From Methylopila sp. M107 (GTDB lineage Bacteria; Pseudomonadota; Alphaproteobacteria; Rhizobiales; Methylopilaceae), in the NCBI RefSeq assembly GCF_000384475.1, contig NZ_ARWB01000001.1, positions 846,022-910,021 of the forward strand: a DNA stretch of 64,000 bases. Reading direction: 5' to 3'. This document shows positions 27,500 to 63,622 of this stretch, piece after piece. The position numbers were made by a program, and so were the translations under genes. The notes below the pieces were generated by a model. It did no database searches and was not told the origin of the DNA. It saw only the letters and a program-made list of their open reading frames with translations. Numbering within the stretch: the stretch's first letter is position 1; each line of letters begins with the position of its first letter.

Positions 27500-28780
27500 A
27501 TGCTGATCCTGATCGCCGCCTTCGGTTCGCACGGCGACGTGTTGCCGCTGGTCGCCATCGGCGCCGAGCTGAAACGGCGCGGCCACCGCGTGATCGTCGG
27601 GACGATGGAGCCGTTCGGGCCCATCGTCGAACGGGCAGGCCTCGAATTCGAGCAGATCGGCACCGAGGCCGAGTATCGCGAGGGGCTCGGCCACGCCGAT
27701 CTGTGGCGGCCGATCCGTGGCGCGCGGCGTCTGTTCGCCTTCGCCGAACTTGGGATCCGCCCGACCCTGGAGTTCATCGAGCGGCGACGCGACCGGAAGA
27801 CCGGTACGCTGGTGGTCGCCTCGACGCTCGCGATCGGCGCGCGACTCGCGCATGACGTCTTCAAGGTGCCGATCGTGACAGTGCATCTGTCGCCGATGCT
27901 GCTTCAGAGCCGCTACGCGCCGCCGAAACTGCCGTTCGTGCCGGAGTTCAAGATTCCGCCGTGGCTCGAATGGGAGTTCCAACTCGGCGTCGACGAGTGG
28001 TTCATAGATCCGCACATCACGCCGAAGCTCAATGCGGTCCGGGCGGAGCATGGCCTGCCGCCCGTCAAGCGCCTGCGGCACTGGTGGAACGCGCCGCGAC
28101 GCGTGCTGTTGATGTGGCCGGACTGGTTTGCGCCCCCGCAGGCGGACTGGCCGAAGCAGATGGTCTGCGTCGGGTTTCCGCGCGTTGACGCGCTGGGCGG
28201 GGAGGGCGGCCCGCTCGATCCGGCGCTGGAGGCGTTCCTCGCGGCCGGCGATCCGCCGGTCGCCGTGACGTTCGGCACGGCCATGCGCAGCGGCGCGGCG
28301 CTCTACCGCGCCGCGATCCGGGCGGCGCTGAAGGCTGGTCGTCGCTGCCTCGTCCTGTCGCCCGTCGAGGTCGACGTCCCCTCCGCCGATCGGGAACGCG
28401 TCTTCCGGGCGGGATACACGCCCTTCGGGCAGGTGCTGCCGCGATGCGCGGCGTTCATCCACCATGGCGGAATCGGCACGACGTCGCAGGCGCTGGCGGC
28501 GGGGGTCCCGCAGCTCGTCGCGCCGCTCGCCTTCGACCAGTTCGACAACGCCGCGCGCGTCCGCAAGCTCGGCTGCGGGCTCGTCGTCGAGCGGCTGGCG
28601 CTCAAGACCATCTACGGCGCGCAGAAGCTGCGGCGCCTCCTCGGCTCGCGGGCGATCGCGGAAGCCTGCGCCCGGATGGCCCTCCTCGGCGATGGGAGAG
28701 CAGTTGCACGCGCCTGCGACGAGATCGAGACGGAATATGTCCGTCGAGGAAAACGTTCCGGAAGCCACGCGGTCGGATGA
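27500..28780 (+). CDS. GT1/MurG-like glycosyltransferase A
   Basis: 426 residues. The N-terminal Rossmann domain opens LIAAFGSHGDVLPLVAIGAELKRRGH; the C-terminal nucleotide-sugar domain has FIHHGGIGTTSQALAAGVPQLVAPLAFDQFDNAARV, the GT1 signature near residues 317-352. This pattern is that of UDP-glucose:sterol or lipid glucosyltransferases. The middle has LRHWWNAPRRVLLMWPDWF, shared with the next gene. Acceptor unknown. Part of a two-gene tandem inserted between pccB and pccA. Confidence 0.85.
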   Translation: MLILIAAFGSHGDVLPLVAIGAELKRRGHRVIVGTMEPFGPIVERAGLEFEQIGTEAEYREGLGHADLWRPIRGARRLFAFAELGIRPTLEFIERRRDRKTGTLVVASTLAIGARLAHDVFKVPIVTVHLSPMLLQSRYAPPKLPFVPEFKIPPWLEWEFQLGVDEWFIDPHITPKLNAVRAEHGLPPVKRLRHWWNAPRRVLLMWPDWFAPPQADWPKQMVCVGFPRVDALGGEGGPLDPALEAFLAAGDPPVAVTFGTAMRSGAALYRAAIRAALKAGRRCLVLSPVEVDVPSADRERVFRAGYTPFGQVLPRCAAFIHHGGIGTTSQALAAGVPQLVAPLAFDQFDNAARVRKLGCGLVVERLALKTIYGAQKLRRLLGSRAIAEACARMALLGDGRAVARACDEIETEYVRRGKRSGSHAVG

Positions 28781-28900
28781 ATTGGGACCTGTGACGGAAC
28801 GGCGCTTGCATTGTGCGCAAGCGGTATGGAAGGGTCCGTCACGAAATCTTCAATCAGGACGCCGGTCCCGCGCCTCGGGCGCAGCCGGCCTTTATGGTCG

Positions 28901-30232
28901 ATGCGTATTCTGGTCGTGTCTCTGGGGACCTACGGCGATGTATTGCCGTTCATCGGGCTCGCGGCCGAGATGCGGCGGCGCGGCCACGACGTCACCCTCG
29001 CGAGCGCGGAACGCTTCGCCGGCGCCTCCGAGCGCGCAGGCGTGCCGTTCGTCTCGGTCATGCCTCAGTCCCAATATGCCGACGTCTTCGAGCACCCGTC
29101 CTTCTGGCGGCCGGTCGCCGGCGCGCTGAGGCTTTTCCGGGCGATGCCGGCGTTCCTCGCGCCGGTCTACGAGTTCATCGAACGCGAGAACCGGCCAGGA
29201 GAAACCCTTGTGGTCGCGTCGCATCTCGCGCTCGGCGCGCGCGTCGCGGAAGAAGCGCTCGGCGTCCCGACCGCGTCGGTCCACCTCACGCCCATTATGC
29301 TGGTCAGCAAGCATGTCGGGCCGCGGACGCCGGTGGTCGGCGCGCCGAGCTGGCTGCCGGTTTCGCTGCAGTGGAAGCTGCAGACCGGCATCTACACGCA
29401 TTTCATCGCGCCGCTGCTGCTGCCCGGCCTCAACGCCTTCCGCCTCACCAAAGGCCTCAAGCCTCTCAAGAAGGTGCGGAAGTGGTGGCATCCGCGTCGG
29501 CGCATGATTCTGCTGTTTCCGGACTGGTTCGCCGCCCAGCAGCCCGACTGGCCGCTGCAGGTCCGCCAGGTCGATTTTCCGCGGGCGGACAGATTCGGCG
29601 CCGAGCAGGCGGAGCTCGACCCGCGGCTGGACGCGTTCCTCGACGCCGGCGAGCCGCCGATCGCGGTGACGTTCGGGTCGGCGCGCCAGAAAACCGATCG
29701 GCTCTACCTGGCCGCCGTCGAGGCCTGCGCGCGGCTTGGCCGGCGCTGCCTCGTCCTGTCCCAGCAAGAGCTCGCGCCGCCGCCGGGCTATGAGGATCGC
29801 GTGCTGTTCACGCGCTACGCGCCGCTGAGCGAGGTGCTGCCGCGCTGCGCCGCGCTCGTCCATCACGGCGGGGTCGGCACCGTCGCGCTGGCGCTCGCGG
29901 CGGGGACGCCGCAGCTCGTCGTGCCGTTCGCGTTCGACCAGTTCGACCACGCCGCCCGCGTGAGCCGGCTCGGCTGCGGCACATGGATGCGCCGGCTCGG
30001 CTTCACGGCCGGCCGCGCCGCCCGGACGCTTCGGGCGCTGCTCGCCGATCGCGACGTCGCGGAGAACTGCCGGCGCGTCGCCGACATCGCAGCGACCGGC
30101 GACGACGCCATCGAGCGGGCCTGCGATGAACTCGAGGCCGAGTTCAGGCCGGCGGCGACGGCGACGGTTTCGCGCCGGGTCCGGGCGCGGCCGACTGATG
30201 AGCCGGTCGTGGCGACGCGCGCGCCTGCCTGA
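28901..30232 (+). CDS. GT1/MurG-like glycosyltransferase B (paralogue of A)
   Basis: 443 residues from the ATG at 28901 (MRILVVSLGTYGDVLPFIGLAAEM); longer in-frame starts exist but carry unrelated residues. It has the same two-domain layout as the preceding gene, including VRKWWHPRRRMILLFPDWF and LVHHGGVGTVALALAAGTPQLVVPFAFDQFDHAARV. The pair is a tandem duplication with clear divergence. It ends in a short basic tail (RRVRARPTDEPVVATRAPA). Acceptor unknown. Confidence 0.85.
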   Translation: MRILVVSLGTYGDVLPFIGLAAEMRRRGHDVTLASAERFAGASERAGVPFVSVMPQSQYADVFEHPSFWRPVAGALRLFRAMPAFLAPVYEFIERENRPGETLVVASHLALGARVAEEALGVPTASVHLTPIMLVSKHVGPRTPVVGAPSWLPVSLQWKLQTGIYTHFIAPLLLPGLNAFRLTKGLKPLKKVRKWWHPRRRMILLFPDWFAAQQPDWPLQVRQVDFPRADRFGAEQAELDPRLDAFLDAGEPPIAVTFGSARQKTDRLYLAAVEACARLGRRCLVLSQQELAPPPGYEDRVLFTRYAPLSEVLPRCAALVHHGGVGTVALALAAGTPQLVVPFAFDQFDHAARVSRLGCGTWMRRLGFTAGRAARTLRALLADRDVAENCRRVADIAATGDDAIERACDELEAEFRPAATATVSRRVRARPTDEPVVATRAPA

Positions 30233-57923: not shown

Positions 57924-58098
57924 AATCGGGGTGGCGTGGCAGAGCCGCAACGGCTCGGTCCAATCGTCCGACCTGCGTTGAGTAGCGAGTTTGCACGTGC
58001 GTCAAAGTTCGATAGAAGCGGACAGGGTCGCTCCGCGGTCACCCATGTGTCTCTGCATGGATGACGTCGCGGGACACGGCACGGGGGTCCGTCTGCCC

Positions 58099-60576
58099 AT
58101 GATGCGTATGGTTCGAGTTTTCGGGCGTCTTGCCCTTGCTTCGTCGGTCGCCATTGGCGCCCTGACGGCAGGCGGCGGATTCGGGGCTCCCGGAGTTTCC
58201 TCGGCGTACGCCCAGAGCGGCGGCATCACGGTTCGCGGCAACCAGCGCGTCGACGACGAGACCGTCCGCTCCTATTTCACGGGCCGCGGCCCGCTCACCC
58301 AGTCGGTCGTCGACGAGGGCATCCGTGGGCTCTACGCCTCGGGGCTCTTCTCCGACGTGCGCGTTGCGCGCGGCGGCGGCGGCATCGTCGTGACGGTCAG
58401 TGAGAACCAGGTCCTCAACCGCGTCGCCTTCGAGGGCAACAAGAAGGTCAAGGACGCGGTGCTGGCCGGCGAAGTGCAGTCGAAGCCGCGCGGTCCGTTC
58501 AACCCGGCCGTCGTGCAGGCCGACGCGCAGCGCATCCAGGACATCTATCGCCGTTCGGGCCGTTACGAGGTCCAGGTCGAGCCGAAGACCATCTCTCAGC
58601 CGAGTGGTCGCGTCGATCTCGTGTTCGAGATCAACGAAGGCGAGAAGACCAAGATCAACGCCATCAATTTCGAAGGCAACACCAACATCTCGAGCGGCAC
58701 GCTGCGCGACCAGATGTCGACCACCGAGTCGAACTGGCTGAGCTGGCTCAAGACGTCGGACGTCTACGATCCGGACCGCGTGAACGCCGACCTCGAGCAG
58801 ATCCGTAAATACTACCTGAACCGCGGCTACGCCGATTTCCGCGTGCTCTCGGCCAACGCTTCGCTTGATCCTGCCACCAACGCTTTCACGCTCAACATCG
58901 CGGTCGAGGAAGGCCAGAAGTACAAGTTCGGCGGCGTCGACGTGGAATCGAGCGTGCCGGACGTCGACGTCGGGACTCTGCGCGGCAAGATCCAGACGAG
59001 CACCGGCTCGACCTACTCGGCGCAGGAAATCGACAAGACCGTCGAGGCGATGTCGCTCGACCTCGCCTCCCGCGGCTACGCCTTCGCGCAGGTTCGCCCG
59101 CGCGGCGACCGCAATACGGCGGACGGCTCGATCGGCGTCGTCTACGTCGTGGAGGAGGGCGCGCGCGTCTATGTCGAGCGCATCAACGTGCGCGGCAACA
59201 CCCGCACCCGCGACTACGTCGTCCGCCGCGAGTTCGATATCGGCGAAGGCGACGCCTACAACCAGATCTTCATCGACCGCGCAGAGCGGCGCCTGAAGGC
59301 GCTCGGCTTCTTCAAGACGGTCAAGATCGGCACCGAGCCCGGCTCCTCGCCCGACCGCGTCATCGTGAACGTGGACGTCGAGGATCAGCCCACCGGCGAG
59401 TTCTCGGTCGCGGGCGGCTACTCCAGCCAGGACGGCATGATCGGCGAAGTGGCGCTCGGCGAGCGCAACTTCCTCGGCCGCGGCCAGTACGCCCGCATCG
59501 CGGCGCAGTTCGGCCAGAACGTGTCCGGCTTCGACTTCTCGTTCACCGAGCCGTACTTCCTCGGCAGCCGCGTTTCGGCCGGCATCGACCTGTTTGTGAA
59601 GAAGCGCGACGAGACCGACTACACCTCGTACAAGCTCGACACCTACGGCGGCGGCCTGCGCTTCGGCCTGCCGATCACCGAAGAGATTTCGATCGGCGCC
59701 CGCTACCAGGCCTATCAGCAGGACCTGGATATTCCGGAAGAGTACAAGCAGCTCACGATCTTGCGCGACCGGAACCCGCTGAACACCGGCCCGGGCGACG
59801 GCATCAAGCATCGCACGAACCGCGGCGACAATCCGGATCGCGCGTCGGCCGCCATCTTCGAGGCCGAAGGCAAGCGCCTGACCTCGCTGGCCGGTCTTTC
59901 GCTGATCTACAACACGCTCGACAATCCGCAGACTCCGACGCTCGGCTTCTACGCGGAACTGAAGGGCGACATTGCGGGTCTTGGCGGCGACGCGAAGTTC
60001 TTCCGCACGACGTTCGACGGCCGCTACTACCACCCGCTCGGTTGGGAGAACCTGATCGGCATGCTTCGGGTTCAGGGCGGTCACATCAAGGCGTTCGGCA
60101 ACGACGACCTCGCGGTGCTCGACCACTTTGCGGGCGGCCCGGACCTCGTCCGCGGCTTCGAGCCCCAGGGCTTCGGTCCGCGCGACAAGTACTTCCGCGC
60201 CTCCGGCGACCGGTACGGCATCGGCAGCCCGAACAACGATCCGCTCGGCGGCACGACCTATTACGGCGGCAGCGCCGAGGTTCAATTCCCGATCTTCGGC
60301 CTTCCGAAGGAGATCGGCCTGAAGGGCGCGCTGTTCGCCGACGCCGGCAGCGTGTTCAACTATGAAGGCATCTCGAGTATCCGGGTCGACAGCAGCAGGC
60401 ACGGCCTGCTGACCGTGAACGCGACCGACGACAAGAAAATCCGCTCGTCGGTCGGCGCCTCGCTGCTCTGGAACTCGCCGCTCGGCCCGATCCGCTTCGA
60501 CTTCGCGAAGGTCCTGAGCAAGGCCAAGTACGACGAGACGCAGGTGTTCCGCTTCTCGGGCGGCACGCGCTTCTGA
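58099..60576 (+). CDS. bamA: Outer membrane assembly factor BamA
   Basis: 825 residues from the ATG at 58099 (an upstream ATG is possible; the signal peptide fits 58099 best, ending AYAQS). Five POTRA domains span about 30-430; the rest is the Omp85 barrel ending RFSGGTRF, with the VRGFEPQGFGPRD stretch (lid-lock region). It inserts beta-barrel proteins in the outer membrane. The presence of BamA, RseP and LolCD shows an outer membrane is retained. Confidence 0.97.
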   Translation: MMRMVRVFGRLALASSVAIGALTAGGGFGAPGVSSAYAQSGGITVRGNQRVDDETVRSYFTGRGPLTQSVVDEGIRGLYASGLFSDVRVARGGGGIVVTVSENQVLNRVAFEGNKKVKDAVLAGEVQSKPRGPFNPAVVQADAQRIQDIYRRSGRYEVQVEPKTISQPSGRVDLVFEINEGEKTKINAINFEGNTNISSGTLRDQMSTTESNWLSWLKTSDVYDPDRVNADLEQIRKYYLNRGYADFRVLSANASLDPATNAFTLNIAVEEGQKYKFGGVDVESSVPDVDVGTLRGKIQTSTGSTYSAQEIDKTVEAMSLDLASRGYAFAQVRPRGDRNTADGSIGVVYVVEEGARVYVERINVRGNTRTRDYVVRREFDIGEGDAYNQIFIDRAERRLKALGFFKTVKIGTEPGSSPDRVIVNVDVEDQPTGEFSVAGGYSSQDGMIGEVALGERNFLGRGQYARIAAQFGQNVSGFDFSFTEPYFLGSRVSAGIDLFVKKRDETDYTSYKLDTYGGGLRFGLPITEEISIGARYQAYQQDLDIPEEYKQLTILRDRNPLNTGPGDGIKHRTNRGDNPDRASAAIFEAEGKRLTSLAGLSLIYNTLDNPQTPTLGFYAELKGDIAGLGGDAKFFRTTFDGRYYHPLGWENLIGMLRVQGGHIKAFGNDDLAVLDHFAGGPDLVRGFEPQGFGPRDKYFRASGDRYGIGSPNNDPLGGTTYYGGSAEVQFPIFGLPKEIGLKGALFADAGSVFNYEGISSIRVDSSRHGLLTVNATDDKKIRSSVGASLLWNSPLGPIRFDFAKVLSKAKYDETQVFRFSGGTRF

Positions 60577-60670: not shown

Positions 60671-61576
60671 ATGACCGAACCTCGCTTTCATCAGGCCTCC
60701 GCGCCGCTCGACCTTGCGGCCATCCTCGCGCTGACCGGCGCGCGCGCGGACGTGGTCGCGGCGCGGCGGCCGCTCGCCATTACGGGCGTCGGCGCGCTCG
60801 ACTGGGCGGGGCCGGCCGATATCGCCTTCTTCGACGGGCCGCCGGCCGAAACCGAGGCCTATGCGGCGCTCGGGCGGACCGACGCCGGGGCCTGCTTCGT
60901 GCCGCCGCATGCGGAGACGAGAGTGCCGCCGGCGGCCGTCGCTCTCGTGACCGAAGAGCCGCGCCGCGCCTATCTGGCGGTCGCCGCCGCCCTGTTCCCG
61001 GCCGCGCTAAAGCCCGTCGCGATGTTCGGACCCGGCGTCGCGGCCGGGGCGGCGGTCCATCCCGAGGCCCGGCTCGAGCCGGACGTCTCGGTCGATCCGG
61101 GCGCCGTGATCGGTCCCGGCGCCGAGATCGGCCGTGGCGCCGTAATCGGCGCGAACGCGGTCGTCGGTCCGGGCGTCAGGATCGGACGCGACAGCGCGCT
61201 CGGCCATGGCGCGGCGGTGTCGAATGCGCTCGTCGGCGACCGCGTGGTCATCCAGCAGGGCGTCGCGATCGGCGATTGCGGGTATGGCGAGTGCGGCGGG
61301 GCCGCCTCGCCGTCGCTCGGCCGCGTCATCGTGCAGGACGACGCCGTGATCGGCGCGAACGCAGCCGTCGCGCGCGGACGGGATCGCGACACCATCATCG
61401 GCGAAGCGAGCCGCGTCGCGGCGCTGGCGCGCATCGCGCCGGACGTCGTCATCGGCCGGCATTGCCTCGTCTACGCCGACGCCGCCGTCCCCGAAGGCGC
61501 GACTGTCGGCGACCACTCGATTTGCGGACTGGAGGCGGGAAGCCGCCATCCGTCGCCGAAGGATTCTGGATCATGA
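60671..61576 (+). CDS. lpxD: LpxD-like acyltransferase, degenerate and truncated
   Basis: 301 residues, versus about 340-350 for normal LpxD. The uridine-binding N-terminal domain (about 1-105) and the hexapeptide left-handed helix (about 105-280) are recognisable, including [15 protein letters not shown]. The stretch aligned with the catalytic IAHN of E. coli LpxD reads IAPD (Pro257), so the general-base His is missing; DGFGF is replaced by DCGYGE, and IDRG by VARG. The C-terminal helical part with the second His is absent. It overlaps fabZ by four bases. Function is probably lost or altered. Confidence 0.85.
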
Positions 61577-62061
61577 GCGAAACCGAAAACCCGACCGCCG
61601 AGAGCGACGCCCCGAAGACGCTGCTTGCGGCCGACATCATGCAGGTCCTCGCGGCTCTGCCGCACCGCTACCCGTTTCTGCTGGTCGACAGAATCGAGGA
61701 AATCGACGGCGACGTGTCGGGCGTCGGCGTCAAGAACGTCACGTTCAACGAGCCGCACTTCCAGGGCCACTTCCCGGGCGCGCCCGTGATGCCCGGGGTG
61801 CTGATGATCGAGGGCATGGCCCAGACGGCCGGCTGCATGTGCATCGCGGCCCGCACCGCCAAGGCCTCGCCGCGGCTCGTCTATTTCATGACGATCGACA
61901 AGGCGAAGTTCCGCAAACCTGTCGTGCCGGGCGACGTGGTCCGCTACCACATGACCCAGATCAAGAAGCGCGCGAACATGTGGTGGTTCAAGGGCGTCGC
62001 CAAGGTCGACGGCAAGACGGTGTGCGAGGCCGAAATCTCGGCGATGATCGTCGACGCCTGA
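61573..62061 (+). CDS. fabZ: 3-hydroxyacyl-ACP dehydratase FabZ
   Basis: 162 residues from the ATG at 61573. It has [13 protein letters not shown] and the [20 protein letters not shown] signature, with His66 and Glu80 as the catalytic pair. It removes water in fatty acid elongation. It overlaps the lpxD-like gene. In relatives lpxA, lpxI and lpxB follow, but here a short repeat-bearing gap and gltA follow. Confidence 0.97.
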
Positions 62062-62109
62062 CGGCCGTCCCTTGTAGAGCAGTTTCAGTTTGGGCGAGGT
62101 CATCTCGAA

Positions 62110-62190
62110 CGTCATGCCCGGCTCCGCCGGGCATGACGGCTTTGATCTGGTCAGCGCCGTGTCATCCCGGCCGTCAGAGCCGGGATCCAG
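62110..62190. repeat. Palindromic intergenic repeats at the fabZ-gltA junction
   Basis: CGTCATGCCCGGCTCCGCCGGGCATGACG (62110-62138) is a near-perfect palindrome, and GTCATCCCGGCC...GCCGGGATCC (62161-62190) is a second. Same family as at 13817 and 17533. They occupy the place where lpxA-lpxI-lpxB would be expected. Confidence 0.75.
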
Positions 62191-62227
62191 AAACGTCGGC
62201 ATCGCATTGTGCGCGTTGAGGTCTTTC

Positions 62228-62251
62228 ACTCCGGGCGCAGTCGCCCGGAGT
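62228..62251. terminator. Hairpin downstream of gltA (weak terminator)
   Basis: ACTCCGGGCG and CGCCCGGAGT form a 10-bp stem with a 4-base loop. On the minus strand it follows gltA by 33 bp, but a T-tract is lacking, so termination is uncertain. Confidence 0.4.
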
Positions 62252-62284
62252 TGACCGCCGCAAGTCGGGGAGCCGAGCCTGGCG

Positions 62285-63622
<1,338 letters not shown>

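Follow-up and report, generated by a model that had tools for sequence, protein, structure and literature searches.

The bamA-fabZ-gltA locus and its LpxD-like gene

The window (the whole analysed stretch of 64,000 nucleotides) covers C1:846022-910021 of the 4,453,493-base single-contig genome of Methylopila sp. M107 (G000), which is rated 100% complete. The LpxD-like gene under study is embedded in the following arrangement.

57991..60576, + strand: bamA, the upstream neighbour and a conserved landmark
60671..61576, + strand: LpxD-like remnant of 301 amino acids without the C-terminal part of LpxD
60986..61270, + strand: left-handed beta-helix core of the remnant (amino acids 106-200), its most constrained part
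61439..61441, + strand: codon 257, encoding Pro where LpxD has its catalytic His (IAPD for IAHN)
61573..62061, + strand: fabZ, with an ATGA overlap with the LpxD-like gene
62062..62284, no strand: 223 bp containing inverted repeats, at the site of lpxA and lpxB in LPS+ relatives
62285..63622, - strand: gltA, the downstream landmark, convergent to fabZ

Profile searches were carried out on G000 and 60 relatives (61 genomes), of which 13 (G000-G012) make up the genus. Eight genus genomes are denoted LPS-: G000, G001 (Hansschlegelia zhihuaiae), G002 (H. beijingensis), G003, G006, G008 (Chenggangzhangella methanolivorans; rated 88% complete, with broken frames), G009 (filed as Chelatococcus sambhunathii) and G011 (a Methylopila MAG from an uncultured organism). 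The other five are denoted LPS+ and comprise G004 (Methylopila jiangsuensis), G005 (M. turkensis), G007, G010 (M. capsulata) and G012 (Methylopila sp. Yamaguchi). Hansschlegelia is placed in the Methylopilaceae, Hyphomicrobiales.

The frame at the lpxD position is intact and its stop codon overlaps the start of fabZ (ATGA at 61573). Between the ends of fabZ (62061) and gltA (62285), 223 bp with perfect inverted repeats remain. In the LPS+ sisters, fabZ is followed by lpxA and then lpxB, neither of which is found there in G000. Gaps free of lpx genes were likewise measured between fabZ and gltA in six other LPS- genomes (54, 49, 66, 64, 253 and 71 bp), and because the arrangement recurs in these six, it is not a product of chance. 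In G008, no gltA was found within the fetched stretch. The perfect inverted repeats of the gap are GC-rich and lie at 62110-62251 of the window, in which the tested 30-bp unit occurs once. The initial annotation, which had described an intact LpxD-like frame coupled to fabZ, a palindromic 223-bp gap before gltA and the loss of lpxA and lpxB after fabZ, was thus accurate for this locus.

A remnant between bamA and fabZ occurs in all eight LPS- genomes of the genus. It resembles LpxD (UDP-3-O-acylglucosamine N-acyltransferase) in position, N-terminal domain and left-handed helix, and the G000 protein shares 54% identity with the LpxD of G004. The helical core is supported by sequence (Hexapep, 82.8 bits), and the best PDB match is the LpxD structure 2iu8, with residues 47-301 of 374 aligned. 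Unlike LpxD, the G000 remnant lacks the catalytic His, the DGFGF stretch and the C-terminal part, and although NCBIfam LpxD models are its best families, it scores below their cut-offs (194.5 versus 207 bits and 161.2 versus 242.5 bits). Aligned with seven LPS+ LpxD proteins (the five of the genus and those of G013 and G015), the G000 remnant has Pro at codon 257 (CCG), while all seven carry a His in the motif IAHN or IGHN. We take this His to be the catalytic residue of LpxD (His239 in E. coli). DGFGF and IDRG are altered as well, and the 357-residue sister LpxD ends in approximately 75 residues, GGHVGVVGHV among them, that are missing from the G000 protein. The C-terminal part is missing from all eight LPS- remnants, that of G008 being cut short. 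Among the seven assessable remnants, the catalytic position holds Pro (G000, G001), Gln (G003, G006) or Arg (G009), and His has been kept in two (G002, G011). The G003 remnant has lost its N-terminal domain and consists of the core and a degenerate catalytic region. Each of the changes reported by the initial annotation (Pro257, the altered DGFGF and IDRG stretches, the missing C-terminal part) is therefore seen in the alignment, and judged by its sequence the remnant is no longer able to work as LpxD.

Constraint was compared between six LPS- and five LPS+ genomes, G003 and G008 being dropped for truncation, by the ratio of second- to third-codon-position differences. LPS+ LpxD is most tightly constrained in its catalytic part (0.050), followed by the core (0.070) and the N-terminal domain (0.259). 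The LPS- remnants are relaxed in both the catalytic part (0.641) and the N-terminal domain (0.668), whereas their core has a ratio of 0.302 (95% interval 0.207-0.405), similar to fabZ of the same genomes (0.326). This core is nonetheless less constrained than that of LPS+ LpxD. Pairwise omega values, calculated by NG86 with our own script and with dS up to 0.9-1.2 in the widest pair, are 0.15-0.21 for the core in the four LPS- pairs computed, 0.29-0.41 for the catalytic part, and 0.58-0.69 for the N-terminal domain in three pairs, with 0.134 in the pair G009/G011. Since constraint is clearly stronger in the helix core than in the rest, the gene is not simply dead, and this regional pattern led us to reject in part the view that it is nothing but a dead pseudogene. 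Of the earlier description as decayed or repurposed, decay holds for the catalytic part; the core, still under constraint, looks repurposed rather than dead by its substitution pattern, even if it is held less tightly than in the LPS+ sisters.

Lipid A genes in the genus and its relatives

LpxB, LpxK and WaaA were not detected in a search of the whole G000 genome, and neither LpxA nor LpxD scored above cut-off; a complete lpx set was thus not found elsewhere in this genome. The same genes are missing in G001, G002, G003, G006, G008, G009 and G011, with weak sub-cut-off WaaA matches in G006 and G008. All five LPS+ genomes, on the other hand, contain LpxA, LpxB (split over two frames in G012), LpxK, WaaA, LpxD and canonical LpxC. 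The set is consequently absent in 8/13 and present in 5/13 genomes of the genus, in line with the deletion of lipid A genes in this lineage as first annotated. Together, these gene contents support the reading that G000 and its seven relatives are without lipid A, and with it the earlier suggestion that the outer membrane may lack classical LPS.

Across the 61 genomes, 14 are devoid of canonical LpxC and, above cut-off, of LpxA, LpxB, LpxK, WaaA and LpxD: the eight of the genus and, elsewhere in the order, G021, G031, G039, G052, G053 and G054. Individual lpx genes escaped detection in G022, G023, G024, G026, G033, G041 and G049, too; as these are mostly fragmented assemblies, only loss of the whole set was used. 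The eight LPS- members of the genus probably reflect one loss, so that their species are not independent. Over the whole set, at least two losses of the pathway are inferred from counts that are not phylogenetically independent.

The Lpt export bridge and the sphingolipid cluster

The initial annotation did not extend to the Lpt components, whether kept (LptA, LptD) or exchanged (LptF/G), nor to the sphingolipid genes. LptD is present in 59/61 genomes, including all LPS- genomes, and an LptA-type domain in 61/61; both occur in all 13 members of the genus. The eight LPS- genus members each have an LptD above cut-off in an open frame of 858-982 codons. LptB was examined in G000 and G007. In G000, lptA and lptB directly follow rnd, and the lptC that G007 carries there is missing. 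LptC scores above cut-off in 0/8 LPS- versus 5/5 LPS+ genus genomes, and no LptC2 was detected in the genus. Members of the LptF/G family number four in each LPS+ genome of the genus and two in 7/8 LPS- genomes, while G008 has four fragments of one pair. All surviving LPS- copies are located at the sphingolipid cluster. In the four LPS- loci examined (G000, G001, G002, G006), the interval between pepA and lptD holds no canonical LptF/G pair, while 5/5 LPS+ genomes have one there. Upstream of lptD, where the LPS+ sisters carry an intact gene, a fossil of the C-terminal end of lptG was observed in G006 (L219 4249-4410, E = 1e-4) and, weakly, in G002 (L218 3662-3742, E = 0.007), with none seen at the same site in G000 or G001.

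The cluster itself was mapped in G000 as follows.

C1:2929000-2948999 (locus L092): sphingolipid cluster
Gene order in L092: GNAT, LptG2, LptF2, HIT, CDP-alcohol transferase, lipid kinase, 355-residue protein, SPT, ACP, acyl-AMP ligase, ABC exporter

The SPT assignment is based on NF047599 (677.9 bits versus a cut-off of 500). Of the genes expected in such a cluster (aasR-type acyl ligase, acpR, cerS-like GNAT, kinase and cerR), a ligase, an ACP, a GNAT and a kinase were recognised, cerR was not located in the cluster analysis, and the ABC exporter resembles HepA/MsbA at scores below their cut-offs. LptF2 and LptG2, which are linked to spt, fall below the LptF and LptG equivalog cut-offs. In the tree, they are placed apart from the LptD-linked LptF/G; those of the seven LPS- genus members covered cluster with one another (0.968 and 1.000), and the LptG2 proteins from within and outside the genus are joined weakly (0.324).

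A marker gene of the cluster is found in 20/61 genomes, i.e., in 14/14 without the lipid A pathway and in 6/47 of the others. These six are the five LPS+ genus members and G023, a 94% complete assembly in which LpxC, LpxK and WaaA are present and LpxA, LpxB and LpxD are not found above cut-off. All six LPS-lacking genomes outside the genus have LptF2- and LptG2-like genes next to the CDP-alcohol transferase, and all six keep LptC. In three of them (G021, G039, G054), no canonical LptF/G pair was seen upstream of lptD and just two LptF/G proteins occur; the other three (G031, G052, G053) have further LptF/G homologues beside the cluster pair, one of which, in G031, groups with canonical LptG. 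SPT was not seen in the fetched stretches of G031 and G039.

Sphingolipids in place of LPS: proposal and alternatives

Based on this pattern, we consider it probable that sphingolipids have replaced LPS in the LPS- members of the genus and are exported over an Lpt bridge with dedicated LptF2 and LptG2. The ancestor of the LPS- side would have lost lpxA, lpxB, lpxK, waaA, canonical lpxC and a functional lpxD, together with LptC, LptF and LptG, the LPS-specific components of the bridge at the inner membrane. LptA and LptD (and LptB, as seen in G000) would have been kept, most likely driven by the LptF2 and LptG2 of a Caulobacter-type sphingolipid cluster. Ceramide-phosphate lipids made by the cluster would be flipped by its ABC exporter and reach the outer leaflet by way of LptA and then LptD, and the LpxD-like beta-helix core would have been kept for a probably non-catalytic role. 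The cargo of LptF2 and LptG2 is not proven by their sequences. A narrower version, to which we give somewhat less than an even chance, is that a hybrid bridge of LptA/B/D from the LPS system and LptF2/G2, with no recognisable LptC, serves as the sole surface-lipid exporter for ceramide-phosphate lipids, with the dead LpxD core selected as a structural protein. An LptC-free bridge is thinkable, since mutations in LptF bypass LptC in E. coli (PMC4986956).

A different account would retain a lipid A-like pathway in an unrecognised form, to which the LpxD-like protein and a divergent LpxC would belong. The divergent LpxC is found in 11/13 genomes of the genus and is encoded in G000 at C1:1749071-1749886 (L009 9997-10995, - strand). 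It scores above the Pfam cut-off and below those of NCBIfam (340.1 versus 423 and 176 versus 187.25). LpxC motifs are kept in 7/8 aligned rows, the eighth being the broken frame of G008 (two of four extra canonical rows, L003 and L008, were left out of the alignment as they were in the wrong frame), and six of the eight LPS- genomes (G000, G001, G002, G008, G009, G011) have this LpxC only (181-238 bits), which speaks for such a route. However, the five LPS+ sisters carry it too (approximately 226-231 bits) alongside canonical LpxC (approximately 323-327 bits), and neither kind was found in G003 and G006 in the 61-genome search. The gene adjoins an MFS gene and, in the sisters, a Cu/Zn-SOD gene rather than lipid genes, in a neighbourhood that is largely conserved over the 11 loci examined. 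The LPS- genomes moreover have no LpxB, LpxK, WaaA or true LpxA, and the truncation of the LpxD remnant extends to all eight of them. We hold this account to be highly improbable. The divergent LpxC, which the LPS+ sisters possess besides the canonical one, is read as a paralogue with another task; a rescue of lipid A synthesis by it is judged unlikely. Relatives of the divergent LpxC were found in Methylobacterium.

Rather unlikely in our view is the idea that the LpxD-like frame is an ageing pseudogene, retained to couple the translation of fabZ to the upstream genes. It would account for the relaxed catalytic and N-terminal parts, for a core that is looser than in LPS+ LpxD, and for the ATGA overlap with fabZ, which is shared by G000, G001, G009, G011 and 5/5 LPS+ genus members. 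Translational coupling may indeed help to retain the remnant in these four LPS- genomes. Yet the overlap is absent in G002, G003 and G006, where the frame is nevertheless kept, G003 having preserved the core and the degenerate catalytic region, and the fabZ-like ratio of the core departs from the 0.64-0.67 found outside it. Also unlikely in our view is the possibility that LptA, LptB and LptD are leftovers or carry other cargo, with sphingolipids reaching the outer membrane by another route. The missing LptC fits such a scenario, but LptD has stayed open in all eight LPS- genomes through the loss of six lipid A steps and three Lpt parts, and the only LptF/G pair left sits in the sphingolipid cluster. 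The replacement of LPS by sphingolipids on a modified Lpt bridge thus remains the preferred reading.

LPS-free bacteria with sphingolipids are already known (Sphingomonas); the stronger point of the present data is that lipid A loss goes together with an exchange of inner-membrane Lpt parts for sphingolipid-linked ones. A study on Caulobacter proposes LptC2, LptF2 and LptG2 for sphingolipid transport and calls the route unknown in 2024 (PMC11324152). By the gene numbers given there, the Caulobacter crescentus region CC_1168-CC_1152 is alike in comprising a flippase, acyl ligase, ACP, spt, kinase region, LptF2, LptG2 and a cerS-like gene. Caulobacter nonetheless makes LPS, has an LptC2 and holds the cluster parts as second versions, whereas the loss of lipid A genes and canonical LptCFG here leaves LptF2/G2 as the only pair. 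According to another study, anionic sphingolipids help LPS-less Caulobacter to survive (PMC12275187). Sphingomonas koreensis, as cited in PMC11324152, is likewise an alphaproteobacterium without LPS and with an essential sphingolipid; it belongs to another order, while the loss described here splits a single genus with LPS+ sisters and fossil genes (the lpxD remnant and the end of lptG). Lipid A loss within the Alphaproteobacteria is also described for the Anaplasmataceae (Wolbachia, Ehrlichia, Anaplasma; PMC3087551); these lack the pathway too but are intracellular, unlike a 4.45-Mb genome with a sphingolipid cluster. Among the titles and abstracts of the open literature, we found no report of LPS loss in Hansschlegelia, nor of a loss of canonical LptFG with LptF2G2 kept.

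If the hybrid-bridge version is true, evolution has carried out the missing transport experiment for sphingolipid export. The split of one genus into LPS+ and LPS- members, with LptC/F/G lost and the sphingolipid-linked LptF/G kept, makes the sphingolipid route testable in culturable bacteria such as H. beijingensis DSM 25481 and M. capsulata DSM 6130, both presumably harmless methylotrophs. For work on the essentiality of LPS, the genus also provides an outer membrane that naturally does without lipid A genes, and in the remnant an enzyme has outlasted its pathway with its core still under selection.

Several further loci touch on the lipids of these bacteria. At C1:2472000-2491999 of G000 (L091 8787-19051), a type I PKS of 2561 amino acids with KS-AT-DH-MT-ER-KR-ACP domains lies beside a second alpha-oxoamine synthase and a further protein; it is a possible source of a polyketide-derived long-chain base. 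Similar synthases occur in LPS+ and LPS- sisters, with the PKS linkage seen only in G000. Near bioF, a nucleotidyltransferase (L094 8309-9202 in G000), by eye similar to sugar/phosphoalcohol cytidylyltransferases, may be the protein that takes the CpgD role in the synthesis of ceramide diphosphoglycerate. A hopanoid difference within the genus is possible as well: in a hopanoid survey (PMC12583986), a genus table gives values for Hansschlegelia, and Methylopila and Chenggangzhangella are listed among the order's other genera. Finally, the window itself encodes two tandem UDP-glucosyltransferase-like proteins (27500-30232, + strand; Glyco_transf_28/EryCIII-like) between genes that by eye resemble the two CoA carboxylase subunits, and these are possible lipid glycosyltransferases.
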